Source of the DNA: Candidatus Limosilactobacillus intestinigallinarum
Lineage (GTDB): Bacteria; Bacillota; Bacilli; Lactobacillales; Lactobacillaceae
DNA length: 48,589 bases
Assembly: GCA_019117285.1 (NCBI GenBank)
Contig: DXAA01000013.1
Span: 66,373 to 114,961 of the forward strand
Direction: 5' to 3'
The translations under genes and the position numbers were made by a program. Below the pieces are notes generated by a model that was not told where the DNA came from, did not search any database, and saw nothing but the letters and a program-made list of their open reading frames with translations. Shown here piece after piece: positions 10,046 to 48,589 of the stretch. The stretch's first letter is position 1. Each line of letters starts with the position of its first letter.

Positions 10046-10057
10046 GGGAGTTTTAGA

Positions 10058-10711
10058 ATGATTAAAGTAGCACCATCAATTTTGAGTGCCGACTACGTAA
10101 ACTTACAGAAGGACATCGAGAAGGTCGACAAGGCCGGTGCCGAATACCTGCACATCGATGTCATGGACGGGACCTTTGTCCCAAGCATTTCTTACGGACC
10201 GGGCTTCGTAAAGGCCATCCGGCCAATCACCAAGATGACCCTGGATGTTCACCTGATGGTTGAAAACCCAGAGCACATCCTGCCGATGTTCATCGACGCC
10301 GGTGCCGACATCATCGGGGTTCAGGTTGAAGCCACCCAGCACATCCACCGCGCCCTGCAGATCATCAAGAACGGCGGGGTCAAGGCCGAAGTTGTCATTA
10401 ACCCAGGAACGCCAGTGGCAATGATTGAACCCGTCCTGCACATGGTTGACCAGGTCCTGGTCATGACGGTTAACCCTGGCTTCGGTGGGCAAAAGTTCCT
10501 GCCGGAGACGGTGGACAAGATCGCCCAACTGAACGCCATCAAGCAGGAGAAGGGTTACAACTTCGACATCGAAATCGATGGTGGGGTTAACAACAAGACG
10601 GTTGTCGACTGCTACAAGGCCGGTGCTACGGTTGCCGTGGCCGGTTCCTACGTCTTCAACGCCGATGACCCGGCTGCCCGGGTGGAAGCCCTGCGCGACG
10701 CAACGAAGTAA
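10058..10711 (+). CDS. rpe: Ribulose-phosphate 3-epimerase
   Basis: Rpe interconverts ribulose-5-phosphate and xylulose-5-phosphate. In a heterofermentative lactobacillus this feeds phosphoketolase, so it is central to sugar catabolism. The 217-residue TIM barrel has VAPSILSADY at the N-terminus, the metal-site HIDVMDGTFVPSISYG, VMTVNPGFGGQKF, and EIDGGVN near the C-terminus. All catalytic Asp and His ligands are present. SD GAGGGAG. The gene sits between rsgA and thiN as in B. subtilis, and a strong hairpin follows. Confidence 0.97.
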   Translation: MIKVAPSILSADYVNLQKDIEKVDKAGAEYLHIDVMDGTFVPSISYGPGFVKAIRPITKMTLDVHLMVENPEHILPMFIDAGADIIGVQVEATQHIHRALQIIKNGGVKAEVVINPGTPVAMIEPVLHMVDQVLVMTVNPGFGGQKFLPETVDKIAQLNAIKQEKGYNFDIEIDGGVNNKTVVDCYKAGATVAVAGSYVFNADDPAARVEALRDATK

Positions 10712-39573: not shown

Positions 39574-39843
39574 ATGGCAAAAAAGTCAAAGATTGCTAAG
39601 TTACATCATCAAGAAGCATTGGTAAAGAAGTACGCTGCTAAGCGTAAGGAATTGAAGGCCCAGGGTGACTATATCGCCCTGTCCAAGCTGCCACGCAATT
39701 CCAGTCCGGTCCGGCTCCACAACCGGGACCGCTACGATGGTCGTCCGCACGCCTACATGCGTAAGTTCGGGATGTCCCGGATCAACTTCCGGAACCTGGC
39801 ACACAAGGGTCAGATTCCGGGGGTCCGGAAGGCCAGTTGGTAA
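39574..39843 (+). CDS. rpsN: 30S ribosomal protein S14, zinc-independent form
   Basis: An 89-residue S14 of the long type without the CxxC...CxxC zinc knuckle (no cysteine at all). It starts [20 protein letters not shown] and ends with [18 protein letters not shown], the family signature. In B. subtilis the equivalent YhzA replaces the zinc form when zinc is scarce; lactobacilli may hold one or both. It stands alone away from the spc operon, which supports its being the alternative or second copy. SD AAAGGAG is about 13 bases from the ATG. Has its own promoter and terminator. Confidence 0.94.
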
Positions 39844-39956: not shown

Positions 39957-40877
39957 ATGAGCGAGCAAGTAGATTACCGAGAACTGGAACGGCTGGTCAC
40001 GGCTCAGCCGCAGGTCCACGCGGCTGATTATTACATCAATGCCCGGTCCCGGACACAGGTGGTTTATGACCAGACGATTCAGATGGGAAAGAGCATCCTG
40101 GAGGAACGAGACACGGTCCAGCTATCGCCCCAGACGATGGTCGACATGGCGGTTCAATCGATCAATAACGCAATCAAGGCACTGAAGGGGAGTGCCGAAC
40201 AGTCCAACGGGGCAGTCACTGCCCCAGCGACCAGTGATGCCCCCGTTCAGCGGCCAGTTACCCCCCAGCCTAATTCACCAGCTGCCTTTGCCAACGCGAC
40301 CGTGCAATCCCCGCTGAGTGCGGCAACCCATGCTTCCCAACAAGCGACAGGTCAGGAGGCCGGTCCGCAACAGTCCGGTTCCGTTCAGACGACCACGCCG
40401 GCCGGGGTGCAGGCGGTGGCGAACCCGGTCCAGGCGAATCGTCCCCAAACGGTTACGGTCACGCCGGCCTCGTCAACGGTGGAACCGGCTCAGCCTGACT
40501 CGGTTGCGACCACGTCGGCGGCTGCCAATGGTGATTCCCTATTCCTGGCGGGATCAGCCACTACGGATCAATCAACCAGCCCTGCCGATCAGCCGGCACC
40601 GGCAGCGTCTGCTCAGTCAATGGCTCAACAGGCGCCGACTCCTACCCCCGCTGCCCAGTCGACGCCCCAAGCGCAATCGAAGCCAAGTGGCCAGCCCTTG
40701 CCAACCGACCAATCAACCGCTCCGGAGGCGGGCTCCGCAGTGGACCTACCACGGTCGTCAGTGACCGTCAACTCAACCCAGCAGGACCCCGACACTCCGG
40801 AACGGCCGTCCGTCGGGAAAGCCATCTGGCGGGGACTCCAGTGGACCCTGGGTTTTAAAAGAAATAATATCGAATGA
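39957..40877 (+). CDS. Unrecognised protein with long disordered middle
   Basis: A 306-residue protein I do not recognise. Residues about 1-80 look folded and helical (starts MSEQVDYRELERLVTAQPQV, with YYINARSRTQVVYDQTIQMG). Residues about 81-280 are low complexity, built of Ala, Gln, Thr, Pro, Ser and Val. The last ~26 residues form a compact segment with two Trp and basic residues (VGKAIWRGLQWTLGFKRNN), perhaps an amphipathic membrane-touching helix. There is no signal peptide, LPxTG or membrane helix, so it is probably cytoplasmic. The disordered part resembles the FtsY insert in this window, but with less Glu. SD GGGGGAG. Single gene with its own promoter and terminator. Confidence 0.8.
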   Translation: MSEQVDYRELERLVTAQPQVHAADYYINARSRTQVVYDQTIQMGKSILEERDTVQLSPQTMVDMAVQSINNAIKALKGSAEQSNGAVTAPATSDAPVQRPVTPQPNSPAAFANATVQSPLSAATHASQQATGQEAGPQQSGSVQTTTPAGVQAVANPVQANRPQTVTVTPASSTVEPAQPDSVATTSAAANGDSLFLAGSATTDQSTSPADQPAPAASAQSMAQQAPTPTPAAQSTPQAQSKPSGQPLPTDQSTAPEAGSAVDLPRSSVTVNSTQQDPDTPERPSVGKAIWRGLQWTLGFKRNNIE

Positions 40878-40881
40878 CCAG

Positions 40882-40916
40882 TAGATCGTAATGGGTAACC
40901 GTTACGATCTATTTTA
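40882..40916 (+). terminator. Terminator after the unknown gene
   Basis: TAGATCGTAA (40882-40891) pairs with TTACGATCTA (40902-40911) around GGGTAACC; TTTT follows. It abuts the first PerR-like box of ahpC. Confidence 0.8.
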
Positions 40917-40928
40917 GAATTAATCTAA
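40914..40928. promoter_or_regulatory. PerR-like box 1 upstream of ahpC
   Basis: TTAGAATTAATCTAA has inverted arms TTAGA/TCTAA and matches 12 of 15 positions of the PerR consensus TTATAATTATTATAA. It lies just upstream of the -35 region of ahpC. Confidence 0.5.
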
Positions 40929-40936
40929 ATTAATCC

Positions 40937-40964
40937 TTGATTAATAGACCCAAACAGTTATAAT
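40937..40964 (+). promoter_or_regulatory. Promoter of ahpC
   Basis: TTGATT (40937-40942), 16 bases, TATAAT (consensus, 40959-40964). The start codon lies 45 bases downstream. Confidence 0.75.
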
Positions 40965-40975
40965 GAAGGTGTAGT

Positions 40976-40990
40976 TAAGAATGATTCTAA
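40976..40990. promoter_or_regulatory. PerR-like box 2 in the ahpC leader
   Basis: TAAGAATGATTCTAA contains the perfect inverted repeat AGAAT-G-ATTCT and also matches about 12 of 15 PerR consensus positions. Placed just after the start of transcription, it is well positioned for repression. The perR gene is not in the window. Confidence 0.55.
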
Positions 40991-41008: not shown

Positions 41009-41572
41009 ATGAATTTTGTCGGACACGAGATTGAAGACTTTAAGGTCAACGCATATCAAGATGGCAAGACGGTTGAAGTTACCAAGAAGGACGTTTTGGG
41101 CAAGTGGAGTATCTTCTTCTTCTACCCAGCTGACTTCTCATTCGTCTGCCCAACGGAACTAGAAGCCCTGCAGGACAAGTACGAGGACTTCAAGCAGGCT
41201 AACGCCGAGATCTACTCCGTCTCCGAGGATACCGAGTTCGTTCACAAGGCCTGGGCCGAAGCCTCCGAGAAGATCGGTAAGATCAAGTATCACATGCTGG
41301 CGGACCCGGCTGGCAAGTTGGCCCGGATGTTTGATGTCTTAGACGAGGACGCCGGCCAGGCCTACCGGGGCGTCTTCATCGTCGACCCGGATGGCAAGAT
41401 CCAATCCTACACCATCAACAACATGGGGATCGGTCGGAGCGCAGCCGAGATTCTGCGGACCCTGCAAGCTGCCCAATTCGTCCGTGAACACGGTGACCGG
41501 GTCTGCCCAGCCAACTGGAAGCCAGGTCAGGACTCCATCAAGCCAAGTCTCGACCTCGTCGGCAAGCTTTAA
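41009..41572 (+). CDS. ahpC: Alkyl hydroperoxide reductase peroxiredoxin subunit AhpC
   Basis: AhpC is a typical 2-Cys peroxiredoxin that reduces hydrogen peroxide, organic peroxides and peroxynitrite. The 187-residue length is exact for the family. The peroxidatic cysteine is Cys47 in FSFVCPTE and the resolving cysteine Cys166 in DRVCPANWKPG; the GIGRSAAEILRTL helix and the C-terminal tail for decamer formation are present. SD AAGGAGAGG. The electron donor gene starts 15 bases downstream. PerR-like boxes flank the promoter, so peroxide induction is likely. Important because lactobacilli of this kind usually lack haem catalase. Confidence 0.97.
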   Translation: MNFVGHEIEDFKVNAYQDGKTVEVTKKDVLGKWSIFFFYPADFSFVCPTELEALQDKYEDFKQANAEIYSVSEDTEFVHKAWAEASEKIGKIKYHMLADPAGKLARMFDVLDEDAGQAYRGVFIVDPDGKIQSYTINNMGIGRSAAEILRTLQAAQFVREHGDRVCPANWKPGQDSIKPSLDLVGKL

Positions 41573-41586
41573 TCCGGTGACCGCCG

Positions 41587-43251
41587 ATGAGTGAACAACA
41601 TTTATACGACCTGATTATTGTCGGTGCCGGTCCCGCGGGGTTGTCCGCGGGCCTCTATGCCGGGCGGGCGACCCTGGACACCTTGGTTGTCGAGGGTGAC
41701 ACGGTCGGCGGCCAGGTCACCACGACCTCGGTGGTCTACAACTACCCAGCGGTCGAAAAGGTGGACGGCACCCAGTTGATGAACCAAATGCAGCGCCAGG
41801 TGGCGGACTTTGGGGTTGAAATCAAGCACGACCAGATCACCAAGTACGACGTTACCGGTGAGGTTAAGACCCTGACCGGCAAGAGCGGGGCGACCTACCA
41901 GGCCCGCAGCGTGATCATCGCCACCGGGGCCAACCCACGCAAGGTTGGCTTCCCGGGCGAGGATGAGTTCCGCGGCCGGGGGATCGCCTACTGCTCGACC
42001 TGCGACGGTGAACTCTTCACCGGCCTGCAGATCTTCGTGGTCGGCGGTGGCTATGCAGCCGCCGAGGAAGCCGACTACCTGAGCCGGTTTGGCAAGCACG
42101 TCACGGTCCTGGTCCGTGGCGACCACTTTACCTGCCCGCCACTGACGGCGGCCCGGGCCCTCAATAACCCGAAGGTCAGCGTCGAGTACAACACCGAGGT
42201 CAAGCGGGTCGATGGTGATGACTACCTGACCAGCGCGACCTTGGTCAATAACAAGACCGGCAAGGAGACCGTCTACCACGTCGATGCGGGTGACAACACC
42301 TTTGGGATGTTCATCTACGTCGGCACCGAACCGGCGACCCAACACCTGGACGGCATCGTTGACCTGGACAAGACCGGCTACATCAAGACCGATGACAACG
42401 GTGCCACCAACGTGCCTGGCGTGTACGCGGCCGGGGACGTGATCGTCAAACCGCTGCGCCAGATCATCACGGCCGCGGCGGATGGGGCCACAGCAGCCAC
42501 CGCCGCCGAGGCCTACGTCACCGCCCAGAAGCAGGAACAGGGGATCCCGATCCACGCTGCCGTAGCCAAGAAGCCGGCCAAGACGGTGGGTCAGACCTCC
42601 CAGTTGGACAAGCAGGAAGAGGTCACGCCACACCAAGGCAACTGGCTGACGGCGGACATTGACCAGCAACTGCGGCCAATCTTTGACCGCCTGACCAAGG
42701 GCGTTACCTTCCAGGTCAACACCAACGATAGCGACCTCAGCCAGCAACTGGTCAGCTTCGTCACCGAGTTTGTCGGTCTGGATGACCACTTCACCCTGAC
42801 CACGGTCAAGGGGGACGACCAGTACCTGCCGATGCTGAAGCTGTTGGACAGCGACGGCAATGACACCGGCCTCCACTACGCCGGGATCCCAACTGGCCAC
42901 GAGCTGAACTCGCTGGTCCTCGGGGTCTACAATGTGGCGGGTCCTGGCCAGACGATCGCCCCAGAGATGGCCGACCGGATCAAGCAACTCGGTTCGGTCG
43001 ACATCCGGATCGGGGTCTCGTTGACCTGCCACTTCTGCCCGGACGTGGTGGCGGCTTGTCAGCGGATGGCCTCCTTGAACCCGGGGATCACGGCGACGAT
43101 GATCGACCTCCAACACTTCCCAGAATTGCGTAAGGACAAGAAGATCATGTCCGTGCCGGCGACGATGATCGGTGACGATCCGGTCATCTTCGGCAGCCAA
43201 TCCCTGGACGAACTGGTCACGGCCGTGGAGAAGCACGAACAGCAGAATTAA
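41587..43251 (+). CDS. NADH:peroxiredoxin reductase with permuted AhpF modules
   Basis: A 554-residue flavoprotein likely to reduce AhpC. Residues about 1-315 are a thioredoxin-reductase-like module: IIVGAGPAGLSAGLYAGRA (FAD), CSTCDG (redox pair Cys136/Cys139), VVGGGYAAAEEADYLSRFG (NAD(P)H site) and GVYAAGDV. After a linker of about 40 residues, residues about 356-554 look like the tandem thioredoxin-fold N-terminal domain of E. coli AhpF, with SLTCHFCPDVV (Cys481/Cys484). In E. coli AhpF this part comes first and the reductase last; here the order is reversed. It works downstream of ahpC in one operon. I would call it functionally AhpF, but the symbol is left empty because of the architecture. 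Confidence 0.9.
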   Translation: MSEQHLYDLIIVGAGPAGLSAGLYAGRATLDTLVVEGDTVGGQVTTTSVVYNYPAVEKVDGTQLMNQMQRQVADFGVEIKHDQITKYDVTGEVKTLTGKSGATYQARSVIIATGANPRKVGFPGEDEFRGRGIAYCSTCDGELFTGLQIFVVGGGYAAAEEADYLSRFGKHVTVLVRGDHFTCPPLTAARALNNPKVSVEYNTEVKRVDGDDYLTSATLVNNKTGKETVYHVDAGDNTFGMFIYVGTEPATQHLDGIVDLDKTGYIKTDDNGATNVPGVYAAGDVIVKPLRQIITAAADGATAATAAEAYVTAQKQEQGIPIHAAVAKKPAKTVGQTSQLDKQEEVTPHQGNWLTADIDQQLRPIFDRLTKGVTFQVNTNDSDLSQQLVSFVTEFVGLDDHFTLTTVKGDDQYLPMLKLLDSDGNDTGLHYAGIPTGHELNSLVLGVYNVAGPGQTIAPEMADRIKQLGSVDIRIGVSLTCHFCPDVVAACQRMASLNPGITATMIDLQHFPELRKDKKIMSVPATMIGDDPVIFGSQSLDELVTAVEKHEQQN

Positions 43252-43262
43252 ACCCTAAAATT

Positions 43263-43306
43263 AATCCCTCCCAGGGCTCAACAGTGAGCTTGGGAGGGAT
43301 TTTTTG
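43263..43306 (+). terminator. Terminator after the ahpC operon
   Basis: AATCCCTCCCA (43263-43273) pairs with TGGGAGGGATT (43291-43301), inner GCTCA/TGAGC, then six T residues to 43306. Confidence 0.92.
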
Positions 43307-43562: not shown

Positions 43563-46500
43563 ATGAGATTTCGATTGCAATGCAAACGCGCGATGACAGT
43601 CTTTCTGGCATTGTTGACGGTGATTCTAGCATTTTGCTTTATGCGTCCCGTTAGTGCCGACCAGACCGTGACCCCAACGTCGGTGACGACCGTGACGAAC
43701 CAACCAAACGCACCGAACAAGGGTAACCAATCCACCCAGTCGATAGCGCAGGCTTCATTAGCAACCGGGAATTCTCAACAGACGAATCAGTCCACTTCCG
43801 CAACGGCAAGTGATGGAGCTAACGCAAACAAGTCCGCAACCACGGCAGCTAAGTCTGCTGAGGATAACTTATCGGCTGCTAAGAAGAACGCCCAGTCAAC
43901 GGCGGATCAACCGCAGCCAACGTCAGGAAGCAATGATTCACAAACAATGAATATTCGGGAAAGCAGGACGACTGCAACCCCACAGACGTTAGCGGCGGAG
44001 AAGGCGACCCAAGCGACTGCTGGGCAGGAGATCCAGCCAACCAGCATTAACGCCACGATCACCGACGCGAGCGGGAATGAAGTCCCGGCGGGGCAGACCC
44101 CGCAGGTCAACCAGTATTCCCCGTTAAACATCCACTTCAGTTTTGATTTGACGGGTAAGAACGTTCAACCTGGGGACTACTTCAATTTCACGATTGGTAA
44201 CAGTGGCGACCACCTGAGTGTCCAGAATGCCTCGATCCAGTTGTATGATCAGAACAGCAAGCACATTGGCTATGTTGACCTGACCAGCGCCAGCGGCCAA
44301 ATCAATGGTCGGGTGACGTTCACCACCACCGGTAGCGATGCTAATGGTGAGTTCGACGTGCAACTTAAGGTTAACGGGAATAACACGAGCAGTGGGACCA
44401 CCGTTCCGGTAACGATTACCCTCCCTAACGATCACAAGATCACCGGGGAGTTTAAGTACGTCCCGGGAAGCGATGCCCCTGAGGAGCAGTTTAGCAAGTA
44501 TAGCTATAACAGCAAATTGGGTCCGGATAAGAGCAATCCTAAGGCGACTGACCCAGATTACTACACGCCGGACGACATCACGAAGGGGAACCTGACCTAC
44601 GCGATTCGGCTGATCCACCATCATGGGGATGCCGAATACACGAAGGCAACGATTACCGACCAGTTACAGACCCCCGGTTTCACGTATGACCAAAAAAGTT
44701 TTCTTCTTTATAAGACGCACTGGACATACACCGAGGGTGACGATGGCAGTTATCACTGGAGCAGTGGTAGCTTGCATAACATTCCTTCATCGGACTACAC
44801 ACTGACGATCAGTGCTGATGACCGGAGTTTTACCATGGACTTCGATACGCCAACGCTTGGTGATGGTGATGGTTACATCATCTTCTACCGGCTCCTCTAC
44901 AACGGTGAACCAGTTAACAAGATCACTAATGTAGATGACAAGCCAGCTGATGGCACAGTCATCCACAACACGGCCGAGCTGAATCGTCCCGGTGGTAAGA
45001 CAATTACCTACCCACAGACGATGGTGATCAGCGGCAGTGATGGTAAGGCGCAGGTTAAGTTCTTTACCATTACGGTTACCAAGACTGACCAGAGCAACAA
45101 GCCCCTGGCAGGTGCAACGTTCCAATTGATCCGGAACTCGGACAAGAGCGTTGTTCAGACCAAGACAACCGGGGCTGATGGTAAGTTAACCTTCGATCGG
45201 CTTTTACGTGATAACTACACGTTGCATGAGCTTGTGGCGCCAAGTGGTTATGACTTAGCAAAGGATGTGCAGATTAGTTCTGACGACTTTGCGAAGACGC
45301 ATGATTACGCGGTGACCATCAAGGATGAGGTTGTCCCAACGACCTCCGTCAAGGTAACGAAGAAGTGGGATGACAACAACGACCAGGATGGCATTCGTCC
45401 GAAGAGCGTTACGGTTGACCTTTTAGTTAATGGTGTTAAGGATGGGCAATCCAGAGTGCTGAATGAAGACAACAACTGGACGGCCACCTTTGATAACCTG
45501 CCGGTAAGCCAAGACGGTGAGACGATCGAGTACACGGTTGCAGAAGAGACCGTAGCTAACTCTAAATATACGGCTAAGGTAACGGGTGATGCCAAGAGTG
45601 GTTTCACGATTACCAACACCTATACGCCAGCGACGACTTCCGTCAAGGTAACCAAGAGTTGGAATGATAACGACAACCAAGATGGTAAGCGGCCGGATAA
45701 AGTTACGGTTATCCTGTTAGCCAACGGTGAAGAGACTAAGCACTCCATAGAGTTGAGTAAGGCCAACAATTGGACTGATAGTTTCACGAACTTGCCAGTA
45801 TACAAAGACGGTAAGAAAATCAACTATACAGTTGAAGAAGAGACAGACGATAAGCTTGCTAACTACACGTCTAAAGTAACGGGTGATGCTACTCAAGGCT
45901 TCACGATTACTAACACGGAAAAGGCACAGCCAAAGCCAGAAGTTACTTCCGTTACGGTAACCAAGAGTTGGGATGACAACAATAACCAAGATGGGCTTCG
46001 TCCAGATAAGGTTATTGTTGACCTCTTAGTCAACGGTAGTAAGAATGGGCAATCCAAAGAGTTGAGTAAGAGCAACAATTGGACAGCCACTTTTGATAAT
46101 CTGCCGGTAAGCCAAGACGGCCATGCGATTACGTACACGGTTGCAGAAGAGACTGTAGCCAACTACACGCCTACGGTAACGGGTAACGCCAAGGATGGCT
46201 TTATCATTACCAACACCCACAAGCCGGCAACGACTTCCGTCAAGGTAACCAAGAGTTGGAATGACAACAACGACCAAGACGGCCTTCGTCCAAAGAGCGT
46301 TACGGTTCATCTCTTCGCCAACGGTAATAAGACTGACCAATACAGAGTGCTGAATGAAGGCAACAATTGGACGGCTACCTTTGATAACCTGTCGGTAAAC
46401 CAAGCCGGCCATGCGATTACGTACACGGTTGCAGAAGACGGTGTAGCTAATTACACGTCTGCAACAACTGGTGATGCCAAGGATGGCTTTACCATTACCA

Positions 46501-48589
46501 ACACCCACAAGCCAGCGACAACTTCCGTCAAGGTAACTAAGAATTGGGATGACAACAATGATCAGGATGGTCTTCGTCCGACGAGCGTTACGGTTCATCT
46601 CTTCGCCAACGGTAATAAGACTGACCAATACAGAGTGCTGAATGAAGGCAACAATTGGACAGCCACCTTTGATAACCTGCTGGTAAACCAAGCCGGCCAT
46701 GCGATTACGTACACGGTTGAAGAAGAGGCTGTAGCTAATTACACGCCTACGGTAACGGGTAATGCCAAGGATGGCTTTACGATTACCAACACCCACACAC
46801 CAGCGACGACTTCCATCAAGGTTACTAAGAGTTGGGATGACAGCAACGATCAGGACGGTCTTCGTCCAAAGAGCGTTACGGTTCACCTGATGAATGGTGA
46901 CCAGGTTGTTCAGACCAAGGTCTTGAATGCGGAAAATCACTGGAGTGCAACCTTTGATCAGCTGGCCGTTAATGAAGACGGCAAGCCGATCACTTACACG
47001 GTTAAGGAAGACGGTGTATCCAACTACACGTCTACGGTAACGGGTAATGCCAAGGATGGCTTCACGATTACCAACACCCACACGCCAGCGACAACTTCCG
47101 TCAAGGTAACCAAGAATTGGGATGACAGTGATGATCAGGACGGCATTCGTCCGAAGAGCGTTACGGTTCACCTGATGAATGGTGACCAGGTTGTCCAAAC
47201 CAAAGTCTTGAACGCGGAAAATCACTGGAATGTGATCTTTGATCAGCTGGCCGTTAATGAAAATGGCAAGCCGATCACTTACACGGTTAAGGAAGATGGT
47301 GTAGCCAACTACACATCAGCGGTAACGGGTGATGCCAAGGATGGCTTCACGATTACCAACACCCACACGCCGGCAACGACTAACTTGACTGTCAATAAGG
47401 TTTGGAAAGATGCCGATAACCAGGACGGCTTACGTCCAACAAGCATCAAGATTAACTTGTTGGCTAATGGTCAAGTTGTTAAGACTGTTGACTTGACTGC
47501 TGCTGGCAACTGGAGCGGTGGTTGGACTAATCTGCCGGTATACCAAGCTGGTAAGAAGGTCACCTACACGGTTGAAGAAGCTGACGTTCCAGCCGGTTAT
47601 CAGGCCACGGTTAATGGCAACACGATTACCAATACTCACACGCCAGTGACGATTTCCAAGAGCGTCACGAAGCAGTGGGTTGACAATGATAATCAGGATG
47701 GTATCCGTCCAACTGAAATTACCGTTAACCTGTTGGCTAATGGTAAGATCGTTAAGACGTTGACGCTGAGTGCTACTAACAACTGGACCGCTACGGTAAA
47801 TGGCTTGGCACAGAAGACGAAGGGCCAAGATATTGATTACACTTGGCAAGAAGCCAATGTCCCAGCCGGTTACCAGGCTAAGGTTGATGGCGACACGATT
47901 ACCAACACTCACACACCAGCGACTATCGCGAAGACGGTTACGAAGCAGTGGGTCGACAATGATAATCAGGATGGCATCCGTCCAAACGAGATTACCGTTA
48001 ACCTGTTAGCTAATGGCAAGGTCGTTAAGACGTTGACGCTGAACGCCGCCAATAACTGGACGGCTACGGTAAACGGCCTGGCACAGAAGGCTAATGGTCA
48101 AGATATTAAATACACTTGGCAAGAAGTTAATGTGCCGGACTGTTACCAAGCTACAGTTGATGGTGACCTGATTACCAACACTCACACGCCGGCAACGATC
48201 TCCAAGAGCGTTACCAAGCAATGGGTCGACAATGATAATCAGGATGGCATTCGTCCAACTGAAATTACTGTTAACCTCTTGGCTAATGGTAAAGTTGTTA
48301 AGACGTTGACGCTAAACGCCGCCAATAACTGGACGGCCACGGTAAACGGATTAGCACAGAAGGCCAATGGTCAAGATATTAATTACACTTGGCAGGAAGC
48401 TAATGTGCCAGCTGGCTACCAAGCCACGGTTAATGGCAACACGATTACCAACACTCACACGCCGGCAACCATCACAAAGACGGTTACGAAGCAGTGGGTC
48501 GACCATGATAATCAGGATGGTATTCGTCCAACTGAGATTACCGTTAACCTCTTGGCTAATGGTAAAGTAGTTCGGACGTTAACGCTGAG
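43563..48589 (+). CDS. Cell-surface adhesin with CnaB stalk repeats (3' end missing)
   Basis: An open frame of 1675 full codons running off the window. Start ATG 43563, six bases after GGGAGGTG. Signal peptide residues 1-32 (basic start, hydrophobic core, cut at VSA-DQ). Residues 33-160 are Ser/Thr/Gln/Asn/Ala-rich. Residues 162-498 form a head similar to MSCRAMM IgG-like N2-N3 domains (SPLNIHFSFDLTG, QPGDYFNFTIG). Residues 499-593 are a prealbumin-like domain (KPLAGATFQLI, LHELVAPSGYDL). From 595 come twelve CnaB repeats, each with the isopeptide Lys (VTKxW), the Glu (YTVxE or YTWQE) and Asn (ITNT). The sortase motif must lie beyond the edge. Ligand unknown. Base use is more AT-rich than the core genes. 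Confidence 0.93.
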   Translation, partial: MRFRLQCKRAMTVFLALLTVILAFCFMRPVSADQTVTPTSVTTVTNQPNAPNKGNQSTQSIAQASLATGNSQQTNQSTSATASDGANANKSATTAAKSAEDNLSAAKKNAQSTADQPQPTSGSNDSQTMNIRESRTTATPQTLAAEKATQATAGQEIQPTSINATITDASGNEVPAGQTPQVNQYSPLNIHFSFDLTGKNVQPGDYFNFTIGNSGDHLSVQNASIQLYDQNSKHIGYVDLTSASGQINGRVTFTTTGSDANGEFDVQLKVNGNNTSSGTTVPVTITLPNDHKITGEFKYVPGSDAPEEQFSKYSYNSKLGPDKSNPKATDPDYYTPDDITKGNLTYAIRLIHHHGDAEYTKATITDQLQTPGFTYDQKSFLLYKTHWTYTEGDDGSYHWSSGSLHNIPSSDYTLTISADDRSFTMDFDTPTLGDGDGYIIFYRLLYNGEPVNKITNVDDKPADGTVIHNTAELNRPGGKTITYPQTMVISGSDGKAQVKFFTITVTKTDQSNKPLAGATFQLIRNSDKSVVQTKTTGADGKLTFDRLLRDNYTLHELVAPSGYDLAKDVQISSDDFAKTHDYAVTIKDEVVPTTSVKVTKKWDDNNDQDGIRPKSVTVDLLVNGVKDGQSRVLNEDNNWTATFDNLPVSQDGETIEYTVAEETVANSKYTAKVTGDAKSGFTITNTYTPATTSVKVTKSWNDNDNQDGKRPDKVTVILLANGEETKHSIELSKANNWTDSFTNLPVYKDGKKINYTVEEETDDKLANYTSKVTGDATQGFTITNTEKAQPKPEVTSVTVTKSWDDNNNQDGLRPDKVIVDLLVNGSKNGQSKELSKSNNWTATFDNLPVSQDGHAITYTVAEETVANYTPTVTGNAKDGFIITNTHKPATTSVKVTKSWNDNNDQDGLRPKSVTVHLFANGNKTDQYRVLNEGNNWTATFDNLSVNQAGHAITYTVAEDGVANYTSATTGDAKDGFTITNTHKPATTSVKVTKNWDDNNDQDGLRPTSVTVHLFANGNKTDQYRVLNEGNNWTATFDNLLVNQAGHAITYTVEEEAVANYTPTVTGNAKDGFTITNTHTPATTSIKVTKSWDDSNDQDGLRPKSVTVHLMNGDQVVQTKVLNAENHWSATFDQLAVNEDGKPITYTVKEDGVSNYTSTVTGNAKDGFTITNTHTPATTSVKVTKNWDDSDDQDGIRPKSVTVHLMNGDQVVQTKVLNAENHWNVIFDQLAVNENGKPITYTVKEDGVANYTSAVTGDAKDGFTITNTHTPATTNLTVNKVWKDADNQDGLRPTSIKINLLANGQVVKTVDLTAAGNWSGGWTNLPVYQAGKKVTYTVEEADVPAGYQATVNGNTITNTHTPVTISKSVTKQWVDNDNQDGIRPTEITVNLLANGKIVKTLTLSATNNWTATVNGLAQKTKGQDIDYTWQEANVPAGYQAKVDGDTITNTHTPATIAKTVTKQWVDNDNQDGIRPNEITVNLLANGKVVKTLTLNAANNWTATVNGLAQKANGQDIKYTWQEVNVPDCYQATVDGDLITNTHTPATISKSVTKQWVDNDNQDGIRPTEITVNLLANGKVVKTLTLNAANNWTATVNGLAQKANGQDINYTWQEANVPAGYQATVNGNTITNTHTPATITKTVTKQWVDHDNQDGIRPTEITVNLLANGKVVRTLTL
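45345..47381 (+). repeat. CnaB repeats 1-7 (class A)
   Basis: Seven repeats start at 45345, 45639, 45948, 46236, 46524, 46812 and 47097, with units of 285-309 bases (95-103 aa). Repeats 4 and 5 share long identical DNA stretches and the same 288-base period; 6 and 7 are a second close pair (both with VHLMNGDQVVQTK). This implies recent duplication or conversion. Confidence 0.9.
47382..48589 (+). repeat. CnaB repeats 8-12 (hybrid plus class B)
   Basis: Repeat 8 starts at 47382 and mixes features of both classes (YTVEEADVPAGYQ). Repeats 9, 10, 11 and 12 start at 47655, 47928, 48201 and 48474, at an exact 273-base (91 aa) period, and share VTKQWVDNDNQDG and ITYTWQE-type segments. Repeat 12 is cut by the window end. 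Repeat 10 has P-D-C-Y in place of P-A-G-Y (codons 48138-48143), adding a cysteine. Confidence 0.9.

Follow-up and report, generated by a model that had tools for sequence, protein, structure and literature searches.

The stretch of DNA analysed here (the window; 48,589 nucleotides from Candidatus Limosilactobacillus intestinigallinarum) carries an ahpC gene followed, after a gap of 14 bases, by the gene for a 554-residue reductase. The features of this locus are as follows.

40914..40928, + strand: first PerR-like palindrome, ahead of the −35 hexamer; 3 mismatches to TTATAATNATTATAA, conserved in the genus
40937..40964, + strand: promoter-like site of ahpC-ahpF (TTGATT, 16 nt, TATAAT), 10 of 12 positions matched
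40976..40990, + strand: second PerR-like palindrome, lying after the −10 hexamer and before the ribosome-binding site; 3 mismatches to TTATAATNATTATAA, conserved
41009..41572, + strand: ahpC, a 2-Cys peroxiredoxin of 187 aa with Cys47 and Cys166; TIGR03137 277.3 bits, cut-off 272
41587..43251, + strand: putative reversed-order AhpC reductase, TIGR03143 type, 554 aa, ATG start
41587..42540, + strand: thioredoxin-reductase-like half, residues 1–318 (Pfam, PDB sequence matches, AlphaFold2 model)
41992..42003, + strand: redox pair Cys136-Ser-Thr-Cys139; each of 44 aligned relatives has both Cys
42133..42135, + strand: lone conserved Cys183, Cys in 122 of 124 rows
42541..42651, + strand: linker, residues 319–355, free of helix and strand; pLDDT below 50 at 332–347
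42652..43248, + strand: AhpF-type tandem thioredoxin module, residues 356–554 (5h29, 6il7 and 1zyn matches; model)
43027..43038, + strand: redox pair Cys481-His-Phe-Cys484; each of 44 aligned relatives has both Cys
43262..43306, + strand: terminator-like hairpin and T run after the operon; −27.8 kcal/mol, z −6.12

Module order and cysteines of the reductase

A sequence-only reading of this locus had placed a thioredoxin-reductase-like half first and a tandem thioredoxin fold last, and profile, structural-database and modelling results agree on that order. Pfam locates Pyr_redox_2 at residues 7–300 (2e-47) and Thioredoxin_3 at residues 472–543 (5.1e-12). By sequence, PDB entry 7jyp matches the first half (3.6e-76), whereas 5h29 matches residues 349–547 (2.9e-52) and 1zyn, the AhpF N-terminal domain, matches residues 356–549 (9.6e-22); together with Thioredoxin_3, the latter two identify the last 200 residues as thioredoxin-like. 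The canonical AhpF profile TIGR03140 aligns in swapped order, with profile positions 207–511 first in the gene and positions 2–202 second. TIGR02187, the model for PDO, scores 99.8 bits on residues 357–549, below its cut-off of 185.

In an AlphaFold2 model computed from 44 sequences (mean pLDDT 90.6, pTM 0.81), helix 293–318 closes the first block and helix 356–366 starts the second. Because the intervening residues 319–355 form neither helix nor strand, the linker is put at about 37 residues, close to the 40 or so proposed from the sequence, and model confidence falls below 50 within it, at residues 332–347. Across 124 reversed-order rows the linker ranges from 34 to 72 residues, a variation in length that is expected for a tether.

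The protein has cysteines at positions 136, 139, 183, 481, 484 and 491. The invariance of the pairs Cys136/139 and Cys481/484 is cited from the 44-row alignment because the loci of our larger motif census were preselected by Cys motifs. That census comprised 124 rows, namely the window and 123 of the 124 loci taken (L130 is missing, and L025 was omitted as the window itself); near-duplicates are frequent among them, and of the 123 loci 116 had been preselected for holding both Cys motifs. Cys183 stands by itself next to the nucleotide-binding site; 122 of the 124 rows have Cys at this position, as against none of 10 AhpF rows or 31 TrxB rows. The AhpF comparison covers 10 of 12 sequences for identities and motifs (all 12 in trees), and the TrxB sample covers 31 of 33 loci, lacking L202 and L002, the latter being the TrxB of the genome itself. 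By alignment, Cys183 sets this family apart from the AhpF and TrxB rows compared; it may act as a redox switch or serve in docking.

The ahpC operon, its family and its distribution

The PerR-like boxes noticed in the sequence-only reading are two conserved palindromes that flank the promoter-like site. Three sites with at most 3 mismatches to TTATAATNATTATAA occur in the window (the third at 10053–10067), a number reached in 1 of 100 shuffles. The stretch scanned contains 3 promoter-like sites of the quality of that before ahpC; shuffled versions average 1.2. Among 25 distinct regions upstream of ahpC genes of 88% identity or more, two PerR-like sites are present in 22, one in 2 and none in 1 (L017), counted with a consensus picked after the alignment had been viewed. 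The incomplete genome of this organism holds one Fur-family gene, whose best NCBIfam match is a PerR model (117.4 bits, cut-off 180). None of 200 shuffles folds as well as the hairpin after the reductase gene; the consensus scan does not list it. We take ahpC and the reductase gene to form one operon, on which peroxide probably lifts repression by a PerR-type regulator.

Several neighbouring genes were also observed. Just ahead of the ahpC promoter, 39957–40877 (+) encodes a protein of 306 aa whose residues 6–76 form a FIVAR domain and whose long tail abounds in Pro, Gln, Ala, Ser and Thr. At 39574–39843 (+) lies a gene for ribosomal protein S14 (PF00253; 89 aa) that lacks cysteine; S14 copies of the zinc-free kind often serve as spares under zinc regulation. 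On the other side, 43563–48588 (+) holds the beginning of a gene for a very large, repeat-rich secreted surface protein; its 1675 residues run on with no stop codon, and the gene is incomplete because the window ends at the contig end.

The reductase belongs with a named family. The NCBIfam model TIGR03143 (AhpF_homolog, "putative alkyl hydroperoxide reductase F subunit") has the same domain order, and we take its members to adjoin ahpC in genomes without canonical AhpF. The match runs end to end, from residues 4–547 of the protein on positions 2–554 of the 555-position profile. The score of 677.6 bits lies 10 bits short of the curated cut-off of 687.65, and the protein is therefore termed TIGR03143-type. 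Such a shortfall is typical of Limosilactobacillus, where 33 of 40 full-length matches fall below the cut-off. The 41 reversed-order rows used as tree representatives (after thinning at 65% identity) form one group in both the reductase tree (support 100) and the thioredoxin tree (support 98), and this group takes in L023 and L024, both above the cut-off. Canonical TIGR03140 reaches 355.1 bits against a cut-off of 502.9, with the module order swapped.

We found full-length TIGR03143 matches in 40 of 50 Limosilactobacillus genomes, that of the window included, 7 of the 50 having one above the cut-off. The gene is not universal in the genus, since 10 of the 50 genomes lack a match and several of these are 99% complete. 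Canonical AhpF (E ≤ 1e-120) was found in none of the 50. The genome of the window has no TIGR03140 match above cut-off, an absence that is weak alone because this genome is only 66.87% complete. Over the wider family the layout is a minority trait, with strong matches in 35 of 301 genomes (6 of 40 genera); across the phylum there are such matches in 8 of 299 genomes (2 of these reductase-only), with canonical AhpF in 10 of 299. That this order might be the normal AhpF of lactobacilli thus holds for Limosilactobacillus but not for the wider family.

Genomes of named species yielded at least 470 confirmed relatives among at least 589 candidate stretches. The best 80 of these all span from query residue 6 or earlier to residue 536 or later, and come from Limosilactobacillus, Liquorilactobacillus, Oenococcus, Bifidobacterium and Enterococcus, along with many Clostridia, Peribacillus, Cetobacterium and Succinivibrionaceae. 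Near end-to-end matches at 40–81% identity (best segment) among these best 80 rule out a remnant or chimera confined to a single genome.

In 77 of the same 80 named loci, ahpC lies less than 1 kb upstream on the same strand, so that the position directly behind ahpC, evident in the window from its short intergenic gap, recurs widely; at L130 the two genes overlap by one base. The loci in which ahpC was not seen are L095 and L100, with less than 100 bases available upstream, and L097, which has no ahpC within 3000 bases upstream. On an Ilyobacter polytropus plasmid (L210) the reductase gene precedes ahpC, opposite to the window and in line with what the review (PMC12288474) gives for F. nucleatum. 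L017 (G034:C1:967376-972013) shows four consecutive open frames with no intervening bases, like strung-together coding sequences, and the gene order of this odd record is distrusted.

The layout is therefore already known: it defines a named family, is usual in Limosilactobacillus and is in print. The earlier doubt that it had been widely described gives way before the NCBIfam model, its presence in 40 of 50 genomes and the account of Fusobacterium nucleatum in the accessible parts of a review (PMC12288474). The main value of this analysis is that correction, in that a layout suspected to be undescribed is a named family and the usual AhpC partner in Limosilactobacillus.

Origin of the reversed layout

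The two halves of the protein differ in their nearest relatives. Reductase halves of this type have a mean identity of 0.43 to TrxB and 0.32 to AhpF; the thioredoxin halves have 0.29 to the AhpF N-terminal domain and 0.24 to PDO (19 of 20 PDO loci sampled; L163 is missing). In the reductase tree the 41 reversed-order halves adjoin two TrxB rows, L029 and L030, with support 97, and in a more careful tree of 20 hand-picked rows of the 41 this grouping has support 100/96. Judging from gene order, we take L029 and L030 to be glycine-reductase loci; in both, a thioredoxin-like ORF of 109 aa follows TrxB.

AU tests temper this picture. A clade of AhpF and the reversed-order reductase halves was not rejected, either with an FNR outgroup (p 0.46) or, on the 20 hand-picked rows, without one (p 0.273). 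On those 20 rows the test did reject a control that joined the reversed-order rows to two far TrxB rows (p 0.0169), and with the FNR outgroup a single clade of TrxB rows was also not rejected (p 0.498). In the thioredoxin tree, the sisterhood of both fusion types follows from the root, which was placed on PDO by choice. In these trees the reductase half groups with two clostridial-type TrxB rather than with AhpF, although the AU test leaves a shared clade with AhpF unrejected.

Sequence comparison would favour separate origins of the two AhpF layouts. A specific form of this proposal, which we put forward only tentatively, is a second, separate invention of a one-protein peroxiredoxin reductase. 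Its starting point would be a TrxB like those in the glycine-reductase loci of anaerobes that ferment amino acids, which would have lost its NADPH signature, gained Cys183 and acquired an AhpF-type pair of thioredoxin folds behind its C-terminus. If this were true, the new parts would be the TrxB source and Cys183, as a double formation of AhpF has already been proposed in the accessible text of PMC12288474.

It is possible, though we hold it unlikely, that the protein is instead a canonical AhpF whose halves changed places when one ancestral gene was permuted, such that a single fusion event would account for both layouts. The thioredoxin half, nearer to the AhpF N-terminal domain (0.29) than to PDO (0.24), and the unrejected clade of AhpF with the reversed-order reductase halves (p-AU 0.46 and 0.273) would suit such a history. 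It is at odds with a reductase half that is nearer to TrxB (0.43) than to AhpF (0.32) and groups with L029 and L030 (97 and 100/96).

Proposed electron path and comparison with known systems

We consider it highly probable that the product of 41587–43251 serves as the dedicated reductase of the neighbouring AhpC, of the TIGR03143 type. The functional link to ahpC put forward in the sequence-only reading is strengthened by the adjacency of the genes, by its recurrence in 77 of the best 80 of at least 470 loci and by the shared PerR-like promoter region. The assignment also draws on the end-to-end TIGR03143 match, the resemblance of the C-terminal module to 5h29 and AhpF N-terminal domains, the two invariant Cys pairs, the variable linker and the lack of canonical AhpF above cut-off in the incomplete genome and in 50 genomes of the genus. 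Points against this assignment are the sub-cut-off TIGR03143 score, the sub-cut-off PerR match and the locus without ahpC, L097.

A general thioredoxin or disulfide reductase that stands beside ahpC by chance and acts mainly on other substrates is very improbable. A TrxB-like half with a CATC/CSTC-type redox pair and a C-terminal module with a weak match to PDO (TIGR02187, 99.8 bits against 185) could be expected of such an enzyme, but the upstream ahpC at 77 of the best 80 of at least 470 named loci, and the presence in the genome of a separate TrxB (L002) above the TIGR01292 cut-off, argue for a dedicated AhpC reductase.

By analogy with the chemistry of AhpF and thioredoxin reductase, electrons in such an AhpC reductase would pass from NAD(P)H to FAD and on to Cys136/139, and from there to Cys481/484 on the tethered C-terminal module. 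That module would swing between the redox sites and reduce the Cys47–Cys166 disulfide of AhpC, which would then reduce peroxides. The same analogy predicts a reductase half that prefers NADH. At the nucleotide site, the motif HRRxxxR is found in the TrxB rows shown and is absent from the reversed-order rows shown, an absence that fits NADH use. Expression of the operon would be controlled by PerR.

The C-terminal module of the reversed-order family already has solved structures. PDB entries 5h29 and 6il7, titled "Thioredoxin reductase/glutathione-related protein", resemble the C-terminal module of the window protein; their chains of 218 and 208 residues comprise the module alone, whereas the window protein has both halves. 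These entries are presumably E. faecalis V583 AhpF, and a reversed-order protein of E. moraviensis matches 5h29 (2.2e-90). A literature search under the name TIGR03143 returned no paper, nor did one for AhpF/thioredoxin reductase domain fusion in Lactobacillus, and among the titles listed by further literature searches none dealt with this layout. In the accessible text of a Bifidobacterium paper (PMC6048055), the gene behind ahpC is named TrxR, an AhpF homolog.

The closest described system is that of Fusobacterium nucleatum. In the accessible parts of a 2025 review (PMC12288474), a figure legend puts the two-thioredoxin-fold domain at the C-terminus of AhpF, and the differing modular organisation is taken to suggest two separate formations of AhpF; a sentence in the body of the review gives the ends reversed, in conflict with the legend. 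An F. vincentii record matches residues 4–549 of the window protein in one piece, which agrees with the legend (PMC12288474). F. nucleatum AhpF (FN1984) is thus alike in having a thioredoxin-reductase part followed by two C-terminal thioredoxin folds, but by the same parts of that review its gene precedes ahpC, whereas the reductase gene of the window lies downstream. The TrxB of L029 and L030, nearest to the reductase half in our trees, differ from the window protein in lacking a fused thioredoxin module. Canonical AhpF (TIGR03140; E. coli, Salmonella) shares both modules and the chemistry expected of the window protein but has them in the opposite order, and its reductase-half pair is CPHC in 10 of 10 rows, compared with CATC, CSTC or CTTC in all 41 reversed-order rows.
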